Virus record (IMG/VR): IMGVR_UViG_3300036939_000083
Coordinates: 1 to 38,159 of that record
Reading direction: 5' to 3' (one strand)
Length of the DNA: 38,159 nucleotides
DNA from: a virus
Part shown: positions 28,246 to 35,905 of the stretch, one piece after another
Layout of the letters: every line of letters begins with the position of its first letter
How positions within the stretch are numbered: position 1 is the stretch's first letter
Made by a program: the position numbers and the translations under genes
Notes under the pieces: model-generated
Databases searched by the model: none
What the model saw: only the letters and a program-made list of their open reading frames with translations
What the model was told of the DNA's origin: nothing

Positions 28246-30624
28246 ATGTCTGGCGGCGGTCTAAAAGTCGGTGACGTCTATGTCGTCGTGACCGCCGCCG
28301 TCGGCGAGTTCACGCGCTCAATGCGTCAGATCGTCGATGACGTTGCGCGCACCGCAGGCAAGGTCGAGCAGCTCGGGAACAAGATCGGCGAGATTGGCGC
28401 GATCGTCAGCGTCGGTCTTTACGGCGCGCTCGCCGCTGCTGCTGCCTTCGATTCGTCTGTCACTGAGCGGATGGATCGGATCAAGCTCGTGTTTCAGAAC
28501 GTCGGCGCCGCGATCGGCGACGCTGTCTTACCGCACCTTGAGCGTCTCTCCGACGTGCTAGAGCGGGCGCTAGGATGGTTTCAGCAGCTCGACCCGACCG
28601 TGAAGCAAGCGATCGGCAGCTTCCTGTTCTGGGGGACGGCGATCGGGCTCGCGGGCGGCGGTGTCGGAAAGCTCGCGGGAATCGTCAAACAGCTCGCCGA
28701 GAGCTTCAACGCCTTCGTCGTGCCCGCGCTCGCGGGTGCTGGGAACGCCGTCGTGCGTTTCTCCGCTCTCGTGCGTGGCATTGCGCCCGAAGTCGACGGG
28801 AACTTGAAGAAGGTCGCGAAGGGGGCCGAGCAGATCGACGCGAGCTTCGCCGTTGCGTTTCGCAGTGCAGCCGCTCGAATCCTGATCGTTGGCGCTCCCC
28901 TTGCTGCGGTTGCGCTGGCGGTCGTCGGCGTCGTCATGCTCGCGGGCACGCTTTACAAGGCATGGCACGACAGCAGCACGGGCATGCGCGAAGCGTTCGT
29001 GTCGGTCTGGAAGAGCGTGACGGACGTCGCGGGCCGAGCTGCCAAGTTCTTTCAGGACATCTTCGCGGGGCTAGCGTCGATTGTCGGCGTCTGGGCGCGT
29101 GGGCAGCTCGACGCGTTCGCTTACGTCGTGCGCAACCTGGCACGCATGGCTGCGCCTCTCGCGCGAGCGCTCAGCCTCGACGGAATCGCGAACACACTCG
29201 ACGGGCTGAAAGACCTATCGGGAGAGCAGATCCTCGGAGGCTTGAAGGGGCTTGTCACCGACACCGTCGGCACCCTGAAGAACGGGCTGTCGACTGTCTG
29301 GGACGGTGTCTCTTACGGGGCGGGCTATGCCTTCGACGGCGTCAAGATGCTCGGCAGCGACGCTGCGGCGTTTCTCCGCGAGAGATTCGGCGGCGTCTTC
29401 GACGACCTGCTCGGCGGGCCTAAAGGCAAGCTGAGCAAGCCGCCCGAAGAGTCGAAGGTCGAGGTCGAGGTCGGCACCGCGGGCAAGTTTGACGGCTCGG
29501 ACTATCTCAAGCGCGCAAGCGACACGGCCGGCATCCTTGAGAGGATCGCTATTCGCAAGGCAAAGGAACTCGCCGACGCTATTGCAAAGGCGGCGGACGA
29601 AGCGAAGCGGGCGCTGCGTAGCAAGTTTACTCAGGCGTTCGGGCGGATCTCCGAGCTGATCCAGACCTTCCAGGAAGGGATGGCTGCGGGCGGCGAGTGG
29701 GGAGGCGTTGCCGCCGTGATGGGCGATCTCCTTTCTCAGTCGGAGACTTTCGCGACGCTGATCCGCATGGCGACGAACTTCATTCAATTCGTCGCCGACG
29801 TGCTCGGGAAGGTTCTCGCCCCCGTGCTGCCGGTTCTCGGGTCTGTGTTCAACATGCTCGTTCCTTTGCTTCAGGCGCTTGTGCCCGTAATCACAGCCGC
29901 GCTTCAGCCATTGCAGGCGATCGCGCCGTCCCTTGAGCTGCTCGGCACGTTGTTCCAGGGGCTCGCGCCCGTGATCACGATCCTTGGGACGATCCTTGTC
30001 GCGCTTACCAACCCGCTCGGGCTGCTCGCGGGGCCGATCCTGAAGTCGTTCTTCGGCGTCATTCGTGTCGTCGCAATGGGGATCCTCTACGTCGTCAAGG
30101 GAGTCGGCACGGTTTGGAACGCGATCGTTGGCTTTATCGCGGGCGTGTTTCGGACGCTGAGCAAGGTTCCGCTCGTGGGCGGGGCCTTCGACAAGATGGC
30201 CCAAAGCCTCGACAGCATGAAAGTGCCGATGGCTCAGGTCGACGGCGCTCTGAACACGCTGAGAAATACGAGCTACGACGCCGCAGCCGCGAACTCGGCG
30301 GCGAGCGTCGCCCAATGGCAGAACGCCGAAGCAACGAAGAAGGCAACGGACGCACTCACTAACGTCCCGACAGGGTTCAAGGTCGCGCTCGCTCGCTTCA
30401 ATGCGCAGGACCCTGTCACCGGCTCGCCTGCGACGCCTGTCGGCGCGAGCCCCATCACCCCGAGCCCGACCGCGCCTGCGAGCGGCGGAAACGTGACCGT
30501 CGGGCAGATCGTCGTCGAAGCCGCAGACAACCCCGAAGAGACAGCTCGCAGCGTGTGGCTCGAAATGAAGCGCGAGCAAAACAGGCGTCGCGGCTCGGGC
30601 GAGTGGCTGCCCGCGAGGTACTAG
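28246..30624 (+). CDS. Tail tape measure protein
   Basis: A 792-residue protein, by position and composition the tape measure that fixes tail length and helps DNA entry. It has an N-terminal VVTAAVGEFTRSMRQIVDDVART helix, several strongly hydrophobic segments (about residues 130-150, 200-230, 520-620) and long amphipathic helices with Ala-rich stretches. The segment about 540-620 (VAPVLPVLGSVFNMLVPLLQ and following) is a typical membrane-active tape-measure region. The ATG is seven bases after the T frame stop. Confidence 0.9.
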   Translation: MSGGGLKVGDVYVVVTAAVGEFTRSMRQIVDDVARTAGKVEQLGNKIGEIGAIVSVGLYGALAAAAAFDSSVTERMDRIKLVFQNVGAAIGDAVLPHLERLSDVLERALGWFQQLDPTVKQAIGSFLFWGTAIGLAGGGVGKLAGIVKQLAESFNAFVVPALAGAGNAVVRFSALVRGIAPEVDGNLKKVAKGAEQIDASFAVAFRSAAARILIVGAPLAAVALAVVGVVMLAGTLYKAWHDSSTGMREAFVSVWKSVTDVAGRAAKFFQDIFAGLASIVGVWARGQLDAFAYVVRNLARMAAPLARALSLDGIANTLDGLKDLSGEQILGGLKGLVTDTVGTLKNGLSTVWDGVSYGAGYAFDGVKMLGSDAAAFLRERFGGVFDDLLGGPKGKLSKPPEESKVEVEVGTAGKFDGSDYLKRASDTAGILERIAIRKAKELADAIAKAADEAKRALRSKFTQAFGRISELIQTFQEGMAAGGEWGGVAAVMGDLLSQSETFATLIRMATNFIQFVADVLGKVLAPVLPVLGSVFNMLVPLLQALVPVITAALQPLQAIAPSLELLGTLFQGLAPVITILGTILVALTNPLGLLAGPILKSFFGVIRVVAMGILYVVKGVGTVWNAIVGFIAGVFRTLSKVPLVGGAFDKMAQSLDSMKVPMAQVDGALNTLRNTSYDAAAANSAASVAQWQNAEATKKATDALTNVPTGFKVALARFNAQDPVTGSPATPVGASPITPSPTAPASGGNVTVGQIVVEAADNPEETARSVWLEMKREQNRRRGSGEWLPARY

Positions 30625-31397: not shown

Positions 31398-34300
31398 ATG
31401 CGCAGTCTGTCGTCGCAGGAACTCGCGGTGCTCGCAAGCACCGCAGGGCGGGCGTCTCATGTCCGCGTGAAGGTGAAGGACGGGTCGGGCACCTGGCGCG
31501 ATGTGACGTCTTTAGAGGGCCGCGATTTTCTCGACGCGGTCGAGATCGACGAGAGCGTCGATCAGCCGGTGTCGGCCGCGACTGTCACGCTCAAGCGGCA
31601 GATCGACCTTTTCAGCGTGGCGCCGCTTCGCGCTGACTCGAAGCTGAACACGCTCGGCGGGCAGCTCGTCACGCCGGGTCGCGAGTTTTCTGTCGAAGCC
31701 GCCGTGAGGCCCGTCGGCATGACAGCGGGCGCGAGCGATTGGCGCGTGATCTTTCAGGGTGACATCGACGAAGTTGACTTTGCCGACGAGCAGCTCGTCT
31801 TCCGTGGGCGTGATCTCGGGGGACGTCTGCAAGACGCCTTCATCGAGGTTGAGCGGAACTATGGCGACGACGCTAACGGCGTCGACGTTGAAGTCGTCAT
31901 GCAGAGCATCCTTACGGACAACGGGACCGGAGTGCAGCTCTACTTTCCTGCCTCGCCCGGGTGGAAGCTGCGCGCCTTTACTCAGAAGAAGGCAAGCGTG
32001 CTCGATGCGCTTCGTGATCTCGCTCAGCAGATCGGATGGGAGGTGCGTTACATCTGGCGCGAAGCGGCTGGGGCTTTCGCTCTGACCTTCCGCGAGCCGC
32101 AGCGCACAAACCCGTCGCTCGCGTGGACCTTTGGCGCCAACGATTACCGCAACGTCACCAAGCTCGCGATCAACAGAACCGACGTCAGGAACAAGATCGA
32201 GGTCGTCTATTCGGACGCGGCCGACCTGGACTTCACCGGACAGCCGAAGCGGAAGAGCGTCGTCGTCCAGGATGCCGCGAGTCAGGCGCAATACCGGCTG
32301 CGCTTCATGCAGATCGCCGAAGGTGCGTCGAGCAATATCGACCGCGAGATCGAAGCCCTGAAGATGGCGAACGCCGCGCTGTCTGACTTGAAGGATCCGC
32401 TCGCCGAGCAGGAGGTCGAGCTCGATTTCTTCCTGCCGGTCATGCTGGGAGATCTCTACCGCTTCACTGCCAACGGGGTTCACTACTCGGCTCATCAGAA
32501 CCTTGCAGTCATCGCCTACCGCCACACCTTCACGGCGGAAGGTGACGCACTGACGACGATCACGACCCGTGGGCAGCCTTCCTTCGGCGTGTCGATGTGG
32601 CTCGAAATGGATGTGCGCCCCGGACAGAGCGAGCCGCGCCACACGGCGCCCCCGCTCGACCCCCTGAGCGTCGTCGTGACGCCGATCGTGAACGGGGTTG
32701 CCGTGAAGCTGACCCCTGCCGCGAGTGGACCCGAAGCGACCTCTTTCGAGCTGCACGTCTCGACGACGAGCGGCTTCACTCCGAGCAGCTCGACGCTGCG
32801 CGGGAGCTTCGACACGACGAGCTTCGACGTTGCCGATCTGATTCCGGGAACGACCTACTACGTGCGCGTCGTCCCCCGCGACAGCTACGGCAACCGCGGA
32901 AACGCTTCGTCGCAGCAAGCGGTCATCCCGAAGAAGCTCGAAGGCGGATCACTCGCCGACTCGGCGGTCGGCTGGCAGCATTTGCTTTACCCACCTTCCG
33001 ACAACCTGATCCCCAACGGCTACAACGAAGCCGGAGTCGCAGCGCTCGGAAAGCATCCTGACGGGGCCTTTCTCGTCGAGGATCCGACCAATGCGCGCGA
33101 GGGTCGATGGGTTCGTCGACTTCAAATGCCCGCCGACGGCTTGAACACTGAGATCAATTGGGTGGGCAATTGGGGCGGGCTCGGCCCTGGCGGTCGAATC
33201 AAGTGCGCTGCCGGTGATCAGTTTTTCGCCGAAGTCTACGTGAAGGGGTCGTCGGCCTTTGTCGGCTCGTCTGGAACGCTGTACCTGCTTTGGGAGGACG
33301 CGAACGGCAACTACTCGGGGCAGAACTCCGGGCAGCCGCTTCCGACGATCACGACGAGCTATCAGCGTGTGACTATCAAGGGCACATGCCCGCCCGGTTG
33401 TGCCGGTGTGCAGCTCTTTTGGCAGATCATCTCGAATGCATCGAACGCGGGAAAGCTCGTCTACTTCGACGCCGTGTCAATGCGGAAGATGGTCACGTTT
33501 GATCTGATCGCCGCGAACACCCTGAAGACCTCCAACTACGACGAGGACGGCAGCGGCATCCCGACCGCAGGCGTGAAGCTCGACAACGTCGGCGACGCGC
33601 TCAAGGTTGCGTCTAATCATGTTCGGGTCGGCCGCTACTACCTGAGCGACGCCTTCTTCCGTTCCGTGCAAGCGCTCGCGGATACAGGTCAGCGCGTCTT
33701 CTATCGCGGCAACAATAACCCAAGCGTCAACAGCGGGGCTCCCAACATCGACCGCGTCAACATTCAGGTCGCGGAAGGCTACGCGATCAACGGTGCATCC
33801 GGTTTAGCCGGCTCGTTTTCGTGGGCACACTACAAAGCCTTTATTCAGCCGCAGTCGGCCGACGATAACCTCGACGGATTGAGGTATCTCTACGTTGCCT
33901 TTCACTACGCAAACAGTCTCGCGGATTTTGCTCCTTTCCTCTACGACATACTCGTGCCGGTCTGCGACCGGAAATACCAGAACGGCTCAGACAGCAACGC
34001 CGACAACCTGACGGCGACGAACTTTCTCTTCGTTTACGGGGACACGTTCAACCGGCTGAGCGACAGCATGAACAGTCGCAAGCTGTATCTCAAGGTCAGG
34101 CTTCACGGCGTCTATGGTTACAGCGCCGAGCGTTGGTTCTATCCCCCGGCTAGCTACGGCGTGAACATGACACGAAGCGCGTCGGGACCCGGGGGGGCTC
34201 CTTCGGGCGGCGGGGGCGGGGGCGGCGGGTCCGACCCGTCAGGCAACTGCGTTGCCCCATGGGAACCCGTCATGCTGGACGACGGCACAGAGCTGCCCGC

Positions 34301-34652
34301 CGATCTTCTGCGCCCTGGAATGCGCGTGCTGACGATGCTTGAGCACGGGGACGAAGGCGGGGCCTACGAGCTGCTGCACGTCAGCCGACATCAGGCCGCG
34401 CGGTTCAAGCTCGTCACTGACGACGGGCGCGTGATCGTGGTGACGCCTAACCATCGCTGGCGAACTCGAGCCCGCGGATGGGTACGCACCGACGAGCTGT
34501 GTCGCGGCGAAGTGCTCGACGGTTTTGCAGCGGCCCGCGTGTCTCGGGTTGAGCCGCTCGACTTCGGCGAGGTCGTGAAGATCACGGTCAACGTCGCGAA
34601 GACCTACGTCGTGAAGGGGCTACTTGCCCACAACATGAAGCCGCGCGAGTAG
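31398..34652 (+). CDS. Large tail-tip/host-recognition protein with FN3 and C-terminal Hint domain
   Basis: A 1084-residue tail protein. Residues 1-400 look like a tail-hub domain (VRVKVKDGSGTWRDV, RQIDLFSVAPL, DLAQQIGWEVRYIWREA). A fibronectin type III-like domain is near 450-530 (PEATSFELHVSTTSGF, GTTYYVRVVPRDSYGN). Then come probable carbohydrate-binding/fibre regions, a Gly-rich linker of about ten G residues, and a C-terminal Hint domain of about 134 residues: C951 at the block A start (NCVAPWEPVMLDDGTELPAD), T1016-x-x-H1019 in block B, and terminal H1078-N1079 followed by MKPRE. This is the intein-type autoprocessing signature. I chose the ATG at 31398. Confidence 0.88.
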   Translation: MRSLSSQELAVLASTAGRASHVRVKVKDGSGTWRDVTSLEGRDFLDAVEIDESVDQPVSAATVTLKRQIDLFSVAPLRADSKLNTLGGQLVTPGREFSVEAAVRPVGMTAGASDWRVIFQGDIDEVDFADEQLVFRGRDLGGRLQDAFIEVERNYGDDANGVDVEVVMQSILTDNGTGVQLYFPASPGWKLRAFTQKKASVLDALRDLAQQIGWEVRYIWREAAGAFALTFREPQRTNPSLAWTFGANDYRNVTKLAINRTDVRNKIEVVYSDAADLDFTGQPKRKSVVVQDAASQAQYRLRFMQIAEGASSNIDREIEALKMANAALSDLKDPLAEQEVELDFFLPVMLGDLYRFTANGVHYSAHQNLAVIAYRHTFTAEGDALTTITTRGQPSFGVSMWLEMDVRPGQSEPRHTAPPLDPLSVVVTPIVNGVAVKLTPAASGPEATSFELHVSTTSGFTPSSSTLRGSFDTTSFDVADLIPGTTYYVRVVPRDSYGNRGNASSQQAVIPKKLEGGSLADSAVGWQHLLYPPSDNLIPNGYNEAGVAALGKHPDGAFLVEDPTNAREGRWVRRLQMPADGLNTEINWVGNWGGLGPGGRIKCAAGDQFFAEVYVKGSSAFVGSSGTLYLLWEDANGNYSGQNSGQPLPTITTSYQRVTIKGTCPPGCAGVQLFWQIISNASNAGKLVYFDAVSMRKMVTFDLIAANTLKTSNYDEDGSGIPTAGVKLDNVGDALKVASNHVRVGRYYLSDAFFRSVQALADTGQRVFYRGNNNPSVNSGAPNIDRVNIQVAEGYAINGASGLAGSFSWAHYKAFIQPQSADDNLDGLRYLYVAFHYANSLADFAPFLYDILVPVCDRKYQNGSDSNADNLTATNFLFVYGDTFNRLSDSMNSRKLYLKVRLHGVYGYSAERWFYPPASYGVNMTRSASGPGGAPSGGGGGGGGSDPSGNCVAPWEPVMLDDGTELPADLLRPGMRVLTMLEHGDEGGAYELLHVSRHQAARFKLVTDDGRVIVVTPNHRWRTRARGWVRTDELCRGEVLDGFAAARVSRVEPLDFGEVVKITVNVAKTYVVKGLLAHNMKPRE

Positions 34653-34676: not shown

Positions 34677-35213
34677 ATGCCGATTGATCCAACTGAAGTG
34701 CAGCAGCGCAACGCCGCCGAAGCAAAGAGGCGCGAGATTCGTTACCGGCTCGGGCGTATCCGTGGGCAGCTCGACGCTACGGCTGCGGCGTCGAGGTTTT
34801 TCGCGCGAGTCAATCAGGACACGAGGGTTCAGCACGAGGCAGCCGAAGCCGAGCTTCGCACGCTGGAAGAGAGCGGGGCCGTGGGGATCACCGACGGATG
34901 GGGTGAGTTTTCGCCCGTCGACAACGTCGCGAAGGGAGAGCGCCAGGCCGGGGCAACCGACGGCTACGAGTGGCTCGTCGCGAACCCCACGGGCGACGCG
35001 GCGGGCTTCACGACCGAAGTCGCGGCAGGGATGCTCGCGCACGCGACCGCCCGGGGGCGCACGCAACCTTTGCAGCGCGCGGTCGAGGTCGTGCCGCTGT
35101 GGATCACCGCTGCCCACGCCGCGAACAAGATCCCTGTGGCTGACTGGCTGTCGTTCCGCGCTCACCTGCTCACGGCGGTCGATCTCAGCACGGCGCTTGA
35201 GAGCATGAGCTAG
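34677..35213 (+). CDS. Hypothetical tail-distal protein
   Basis: A 178-residue, mainly helical and charged protein of unknown function. It begins MPIDPTEVQQRNAAEAKRRE and has a coiled-coil-like N-terminus (RRFEIRYR-type region up to about 60) and a conserved-looking WLVANPTGDAAGF segment. GAAAGGCGG lies before the ATG. It follows the tail-tip gene and may be a tail-fibre chaperone, a baseplate component or a lysis-associated protein; none is shown. Confidence 0.6.
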   Translation: MPIDPTEVQQRNAAEAKRREIRYRLGRIRGQLDATAAASRFFARVNQDTRVQHEAAEAELRTLEESGAVGITDGWGEFSPVDNVAKGERQAGATDGYEWLVANPTGDAAGFTTEVAAGMLAHATARGRTQPLQRAVEVVPLWITAAHAANKIPVADWLSFRAHLLTAVDLSTALESMS

Positions 35214-35296: not shown

Positions 35297-35905
35297 ATGA
35301 TGAGCAAGAACAACCGCCAAAACCGAGAGAAGAAGAAGCGGAAGCGACTCGCAAAGGAGGACGAGCGAAGAATGCGTGAGCAGCGACATCCCGAAGACTC
35401 GGGCACGACGATCGAGGAGGTCGTGCAGCTTGCTCGGCGCGTCAGCAATGGCCGCCCCTTGGGCTGGGCTGATCATCGGCCGCAGCCGGGAGCGGAATTT
35501 CGAAACTGCTACGACAACGCGCGGGAGATGGCCCGTCGTGAAGGTGGGGACGTCGTGATCGGGTGGTCATTCCACCTGCGCTTTAAGCCGGGCGTCGGGC
35601 GCTACGTTTTCACCACGCCACACGCGGTGTGGCTAAGTCCACACGACGGAACCATTGCCGATGTCACTCCGTACCCGAACCCGCATCACGCGCCTGTAAT
35701 GAAGGATGGGAAAGTGCTCTTTCTCGGTGACAAGGACTCCGAGCCCGTCTTCATTACCGACAGCGCAGCCATCTCGCAGCCGCTCCGCTTCTTCACCCTC
35801 GACGACTCGCCAAAACTCGCGACGTATGTCGCGGAGTTGAACGCGCAAGAGGTGGCTAAATTCGAGCGCGAGAAGCAAGAGGCTCTTGCACGCGCACAGG
35901 GCTAA
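35297..35905 (+). CDS. Cys-His-Asp peptidase-like protein (accessory)
   Basis: A 202-residue protein with a basic, helical N-terminus (residues 1-30, KKKRKR) and a possible papain/transglutaminase-like triad: C71 in FRNCYDNAREMA, H109 in TTPHAVWLS, D122 in TIADVTPYPNP. The C..H..DVTP pattern is known from small bacterial/phage families, but its substrate is unknown. It has no 29-bp element and a separate upstream gap, so it looks like an accessory gene. It might act as an unusual lysin, but this is speculative. Confidence 0.65.
   Translation: MMSKNNRQNREKKKRKRLAKEDERRMREQRHPEDSGTTIEEVVQLARRVSNGRPLGWADHRPQPGAEFRNCYDNAREMARREGGDVVIGWSFHLRFKPGVGRYVFTTPHAVWLSPHDGTIADVTPYPNPHHAPVMKDGKVLFLGDKDSEPVFITDSAAISQPLRFFTLDDSPKLATYVAELNAQEVAKFEREKQEALARAQG

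Follow-up and report, generated by a model that had tools for sequence, protein, structure and literature searches.

A BIL-like Hint domain trailed by a conserved lysine at the C-terminus of phage tail proteins

The window, a viral DNA record of 38,159 bases, encodes a tail protein whose C-terminus is, by its sequence and predicted structure, a complete and intact BIL-like Hint domain. We consider it fairly probable that its last 134 residues act as a self-processing Hint of BIL type, which would sever itself from the tail-tip protein. In sequence comparisons the same Hint, with a lysine close behind it, was recognised at the end of at least six unrelated phage tail proteins. As far as such comparisons reach, the domain is a recurring feature of tail proteins and not a curiosity of one phage.

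The tail gene and its C-terminal domain

The minus strand of the record codes for an integrase, DNA methylases and a family A DNA polymerase, the plus strand for a terminase, portal, prohead protease, HK97-type capsid and major tail protein. Given the integrase and the siphophage-type set of structural genes, the window looks like a temperate siphophage, and by sequence the phage looks akin to Myxococcus prophages. The tape measure gene (28246-30624, identified by PHROG tape measure matches) is followed by a gene for 253 residues and then by the Hint-ended tail gene. Its position behind the tape measure, an fn3 domain and a variable C-terminal module make it reasonable to regard the product as the putative receptor-binding tip. 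The features are as follows.

31398-34652, plus strand: tail protein gene with the Hint at its C-terminus; 1084 residues from the ATG at 31398, second gene past the tape measure
31398-32927, plus strand: N-terminal tail module, residues 1-510; shared with Hint-less tail proteins from other Myxococcaceae prophages
Residues 434-500 of the tail protein: fn3 domain, from a domain match
32928-34190, plus strand: receptor-side module, residues 511-931; wherever the part 700-931 is present, a C-terminal Hint accompanies it (34/34)
34191-34247, plus strand: Gly-rich linker, residues 932-950, ending in SGN ahead of Cys951; homologues carry a Gly-rich linker too
34248-34634, plus strand: Hint (intein-like) domain, residues 951-1079, from profile, AF2 model and fold comparison
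34248-34250, plus strand: Cys951, Hint residue 1 and predicted thioester nucleophile, in 21/21 homologues
34443-34454, plus strand: TPNH (1016-1019), block B with its His; T, P and H in 21/21 homologues, His in 27/27 Hints
34629-34634, plus strand: His1078-Asn1079, block G, predicted site of Asn cyclisation, in 21/21 homologues
34635-34649, plus strand: C-terminal pentapeptide MKPRE (+1 to +5), with the invariant Lys1081 at +2
34677-35213, plus strand: next gene, 178 residues, function not assigned; homologues trail Hint-ended tail genes in both prophage types (L003, L031/L033)

The original prediction had read the Hint signature exactly, with Cys951 (nucleotide 34248), the TxxH motif, which occurs only once in the tail protein, and His-Asn at 1078-1079 followed by MKPRE; its count of 134 residues (951-1084) and its Gly-rich linker were right as well. 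Profile matches of the single sequence were weak (Pfam Intein_splicing, E 0.006; PDB hedgehog, 0.007; gp41-1 intein, 0.011). A profile built from 27 sequences matched the Npu DnaB intein (4o1r, E 3.6e-8) and the BIL of C. thermocellum (2lwy, E 9e-6) in the PDB. Structure prediction by AF2 with eight close sequences gave a pLDDT of 66; the 27-sequence alignment was used for the final model, which reached a pLDDT of 91.4 and a pTM of 0.85. This predicted model adopts the horseshoe-shaped, all-beta fold of the HINT superfamily, and Cys951 and His1019 supply the residue-1 Cys and block B His of that superfamily. Comparison with inteins, BIL and hedgehog domains (VIA) resulted in Z scores of 18-21 and rmsd values of 1.5-2.0 over 128-135 residues, with individual Z scores of 21.0 for the Ssp DnaB intein, 20.9 for Tetrahymena BIL2, 20.0 for 2lwy and 17.8 for hedgehog. 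Foldseek searches with the model returned E-values down to 4e-10.

Block F deviates from that of class-1 inteins, reading VVKITV and AKTY here versus VFDLTV and LHNF in the Npu DnaB intein, and this divergence in sequence may render catalysis slow or conditional. The loss of these residues also speaks for a domain that performs no catalysis at all and merely caps or chaperones the tail tip. We regard a silent domain as very unlikely, because Cys1, the block B His and the His-Asn pair are invariant in 21 full-length genes and in several tail protein types, a residue set that a cap would not require.

Conservation, linkage and spread among tail proteins

Relatives of the tail protein, at about 70% identity over the whole protein, were found in viral and genome collections, the named hosts being Myxococcus. 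Cys1, the T, P and H of TPxH and the His-Asn pair are kept in all 21 distinct full-length homologues, as are Lys1081 and Arg1083 of the C-terminal peptide. Position +1 is Met in the window protein (M1080) and Leu in 20/21 homologues, in line with the earlier statement that no Cys, Ser or Thr follows the pair. Median dN/dS across 21 distinct full-length genes was 0.151 for the Hint, 0.158 for the N-terminal module and 0.154 for the receptor-side module. Judged by these sequences, the domain is kept by selection and is not decaying. Among 27 Hints from several types of tail protein, with identities down to 30%, Cys1, the block B His, His-Asn and Lys at +2 were invariant.

Hint fragments detached from the tail gene had decayed, with an internal TAG and a change of HN to HG. 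Decayed or partial Hint 3' ends lie at L004 12229-12333, L005 13430-13624, L028 7422-7526, and in G002:C57, G001:C244 and G065:C1. Those in L004, L005 and L028 sit 1-2 kb downstream of an intact tail gene, and in L004 and L005 they stand behind an inverted homologue of 35297-35905, the second gene behind the tail gene in the window, which likewise has no assigned function. By analogy with rhs/cdiA, the displaced fragments look like older gene ends pushed aside by 3'-end replacement. The tail gene occurs twice, in copies 41-42 kb apart, in G004 (77 kb; 4411 and 44989) and in G083:C1 (6047414 and 6089250), which suggests tandem or double prophages. With two to three copies in several genomes, identity with Mx alpha was considered; it was dropped because the literature describes an element of about 80 kb with tail-less particles.

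The N-terminal module (residues 1-510) recurs in many further proteins of Myxococcaceae prophages, 800-1050 residues long and with differing C-termini. A Hint ends 34/34 distinct complete frames that contain the module of residues 700-931 and 0/19 frames with the N-terminal module only (Fisher p 8e-15, to be taken as a guide only, given the kinship of the sequences and the retrieval of some via the Hint). Relatives retrieved by the tail body alone gave the same pattern wherever the C-terminus was present. The Hint thus travels with the receptor-side module. Linkage of this kind, together with purifying selection, speaks against the view that an ordinary or decayed selfish intein has settled at the gene end. 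Such an element would have the same fold, and inteins are common in phages, for example in terminases. However, at most five residues of extein lie beyond the Hint, and neither a +1 nucleophile nor a homing endonuclease domain is present. We rejected the selfish intein as extremely improbable on account of the missing extein, the missing +1 nucleophile and the module linkage.

In the prophages L031-L033, the receptor-side module forms a separate Hint-ended protein of 700 residues, encoded behind a complete lambda-like set of JAB/NlpC protein (PHROG 30, E 2.5e-112), protein I (PHROG 32, E 2.8e-54) and J. Here protein I also carries a Gly-rich linker and a Hint at its C-terminus. None of the protein I homologues in 1,455 phage records spans 80% of the Hint-bearing protein, and among the matches listed the alignments stop at residue 187-190, ahead of the Hint; the Hint is therefore an addition at the natural end of protein I. 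Fusions of protein I and Hint are located in L031 (710-1786), L032 and L033 and in the genomes G024, G036, G037, G061, G062, G065 and G081. Most of these records hold a second Hint-ended protein about 4.6-5 kb away, and the JAB/NlpC gene adjoins in L031/L033.

The J-like protein of the gut phage MT835519 ends in a Hint, as do PHROG 5616 tail fibre proteins, a PHROG 376 tail protein, GTA-like hub proteins (PF13550 with Rcc01698_C, PHROG 1101) and a frame of 1300 residues without family assignment. In large fibre-like proteins of PHROG 358 (L125-L127), the Hint is internal, with about 278 residues behind it and Lys at +1; the part past the Hint ends in a stretch resembling the start of an S74 chaperone (SDINLKSNIQPIDNALNRLFSINLNNG). 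A Gly- or Pro-rich linker precedes the Hint nearly everywhere, and 5-16 residues follow it in most phage tail proteins. The Hints of protein I and PHROG 358 match PF07591 weakly. Plasmid records gave no match. The annotated phage collection yielded a single Hint-ended tail protein, that of MT835519, the other annotatable matches being terminase or recombinase inteins.

The original prediction had called a self-processing tip unusual and had missed that the Hint is found in every homologue of the C-terminal module and in several unrelated tail proteins. The distribution of these sequences suggests that self-processing of phage tails may be a recurring theme.

The trailing lysine and the predicted reaction

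The original prediction had judged class-1 splicing unlikely and cleavage or transfer to another molecule the better guess. Both judgements stand as predictions from sequence, because His-Asn is present and Cys, Ser and Thr are absent at +1; the lysine kept by all phage-tail Hints at +1 or +2 had been missed. Clustering at 85% identity yielded 29 distinct Hint representatives, 28 intact and one truncated. Lys stands past His-Asn in 29/29 of them, 24 times at +2 and five times at +1. Residues found at +1 were M, L, I, A, V, Y or K, with Cys, Ser or Thr in 0/29; the close variant L033/L043 (HNTK) has Thr there. In the tree, the +1 forms occupy two separate spots among the +2 forms, so the lysine itself seems to be retained even though it moves between the two positions. 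The control set, Rhs-type PT-HINT domains of Myxococcaceae (L129-L144), showed Lys in 0/12 and Ser or Cys at +2 in 10/12, which suggests from sequence that +2, not +1, may be the relevant position in Rhs-type Hints. Most scan patterns excluded the residues past His-Asn; two early single-sequence scans included them, and L108 may derive from one of these.

BIL domains without a +1 nucleophile mostly yield N- and C-cleaved products (PMC7664689, PMC7765530). Since the tail Hint likewise has no such nucleophile, the tail protein is expected to lose the Hint and to retain the linker as its C-terminus. Two steps follow from established Hint chemistry (PMC7664689, PMC7765530). Upon folding, Cys951 would take over the peptide bond of Asn950 by an N-S acyl shift, creating a thioester at the end of the Gly-rich linker. 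Asn1079, aided by His1078, would cyclise and release MKPRE, and the thioester at Cys951 would then be hydrolysed or handed to an amine, be it that of a Lys-bearing peptide or another. With the Hint of 129 residues gone, the C-terminus of the mature tail protein would be the flexible Gly-rich linker, alone or extended by the short Lys-bearing peptide. The domain would likely provide a one-way step in tail-tip maturation, in its logic similar to the S74 chaperones at the C-terminal end of tail fibres. Conservation of fold and motifs does not tell which reaction runs; we infer activity, order of steps and role in maturation.

The pentapeptide itself (MKPRE or LKPRD) is conserved among full-length homologues. 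As a throw-away domain needs no conserved peptide behind it, this argues that the peptide matters and counts against pure shedding; the thioester may perhaps be resolved by the amine of this Lys-bearing peptide. Taken further, the thioester would be attacked by an amine of the C-terminal peptide, so that the Hint is excised and the peptide joined to the linker. The amine could be the alpha-amine freed by cyclisation of Asn1079 or the epsilon-amine of the +1/+2 Lys, resulting in a normal or an isopeptide bond. The lysine in 29/29 tail Hints together with the missing Cys, Ser or Thr, its retention despite the shift in the tree, the different residues in PT-HINT domains of the same host family and the conserved pentapeptide all favour ligation, and titles cited in PMC7664689 and PMC7765530 report BIL splicing without a nucleophilic side chain. 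On the other hand, conservation of the lysine may stem from binding or common descent, L108 may have entered through a Lys-containing pattern, and L146, a shorter PF07591 protein outside phages and outside the 12-member control set, also has Lys at +1. Moreover, the last residues of the AF2 model have a mean pLDDT of about 61, and this flank is not modelled reliably. We consider ligation possible but, on balance, unlikely.

In a hedgehog-like variant, the thioester would be passed to another tail protein or to an amine or alcohol of the cell surface, leaving the tail tip covalently attached. Many tail proteins bear the Hint at the C-terminus behind a flexible Gly-rich linker, which is compatible with such a transfer, as is the structural match to the hedgehog Hint, and the Hint on the Ub-like protein I of L031-L033 recalls the ubiquitin-like/BIL proteins of Tetrahymena (PMC9200820). 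But the terminal His-Asn pair is invariant here although hedgehog-type transfer needs none, the sterol-recognition region is absent and the acceptor is purely hypothetical, making this variant quite unlikely. A broader proposal, which we rate as rather unlikely, is that Lys at +1/+2 replaces the Cys/Ser/Thr nucleophile and its epsilon-amine or the adjacent alpha-amine resolves the Cys1 thioester. Unrelated tail proteins, including the lambda-type, Ub-like protein I, would then mature by C-terminal amide or isopeptide ligation, possibly to an amine of another tail protein or of the cell surface.

Should the self-cleaving domain be active, host-recognition proteins of several phage lineages would mature by intein chemistry. 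This would give phages a novel means of timing or capping the assembly of the tail tip, and possibly of attaching covalently. The conserved lysine, placed where inteins have Cys, Ser or Thr, is a clue to another way of resolving the thioester. Lambda-type protein I is a Ub-like protein whose role lacks a settled account; beside its gene lies that of a JAB peptidase, the presumed processing enzyme (PMC1779556). With a BIL-like Hint on protein I next to the JAB gene, the old prediction that phage tails undergo ubiquitin-like processing becomes directly testable (PMC1779556). We found no phage tail protein with a terminal Hint described in the open-licence literature; the original BIL papers lie outside it, and this absence is weak evidence of novelty. 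As far as that literature shows, the tail Hint with Lys at +1/+2 is recurring and undescribed.

Comparison with known Hint systems

The tail Hint falls outside the class-1 inteins, the Hog domains and the pretoxin HINTs. Class-1 inteins (Ssp DnaB, 1mi8; Npu DnaB, 4o1r; gp41-1, 6qaz) share the fold (Z 19-21) and blocks A, B and G. In contrast to them, the tail Hint has Met1080 in place of a +1 Cys, Ser or Thr and a different block F, lacks a C-extein domain, with only five residues to the stop codon, and lies outside a conserved enzyme. In the hedgehog comparison, the His-Asn pair is present and no residues are left for a sterol-recognition region.

PT-HINT domains of polymorphic toxins (PF07591, Rhs/CdiA) likewise sit in the C-terminal region of long surface or delivery proteins and possess Cys1, the block B His and His-Asn. 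They differ in the toxin domain behind them and in the usual Ser or Cys at +2, where the tail Hint has Lys; in the tree the two groups separate with a support of 100/100. Release of a toxin was rejected because nothing follows the Hint, the stop codon lying five residues past His-Asn.

BIL2 of Tetrahymena BUBL1 (6tmm/6y75) is alike in fold (Z 20.9), and a Ub-like domain beside a BIL, the layout of Tetrahymena BUBL proteins (PMC9200820), is also seen in the protein I-Hint fusions of L031-L033. However, BUBL1 is eukaryotic, and the tail protein of the window has no recognised Ub-like domain. The S74 chaperone of tail fibres is similar as a self-removing C-terminal domain on a phage host-recognition protein (PMC12403621), but fold and chemistry are unrelated, with a Ser-Lys dyad there and Cys/Asn in the tail Hint.

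The A-type BIL (2lwy, Clostridium thermocellum) agrees with the tail Hint in its fold (Z 20.0, rmsd 1.5 over 129 residues), in Cys1, the block B TxxH and a terminal His-Asn (here H1078 and N1079), and in having no obligatory nucleophile at +1, where the tail Hints show no conserved Cys, Ser or Thr either. Known BILs have been described in variable bacterial proteins (PMC7765530), whereas the phage Hint stands at the very C-terminus of tail proteins, mostly with 5-16 residues behind it, and has the invariant Lys at +1/+2. The tail Hint thus carries the A-type BIL features at sequence level and resembles 2lwy by profile and predicted fold, and cleavage is its predicted reaction.
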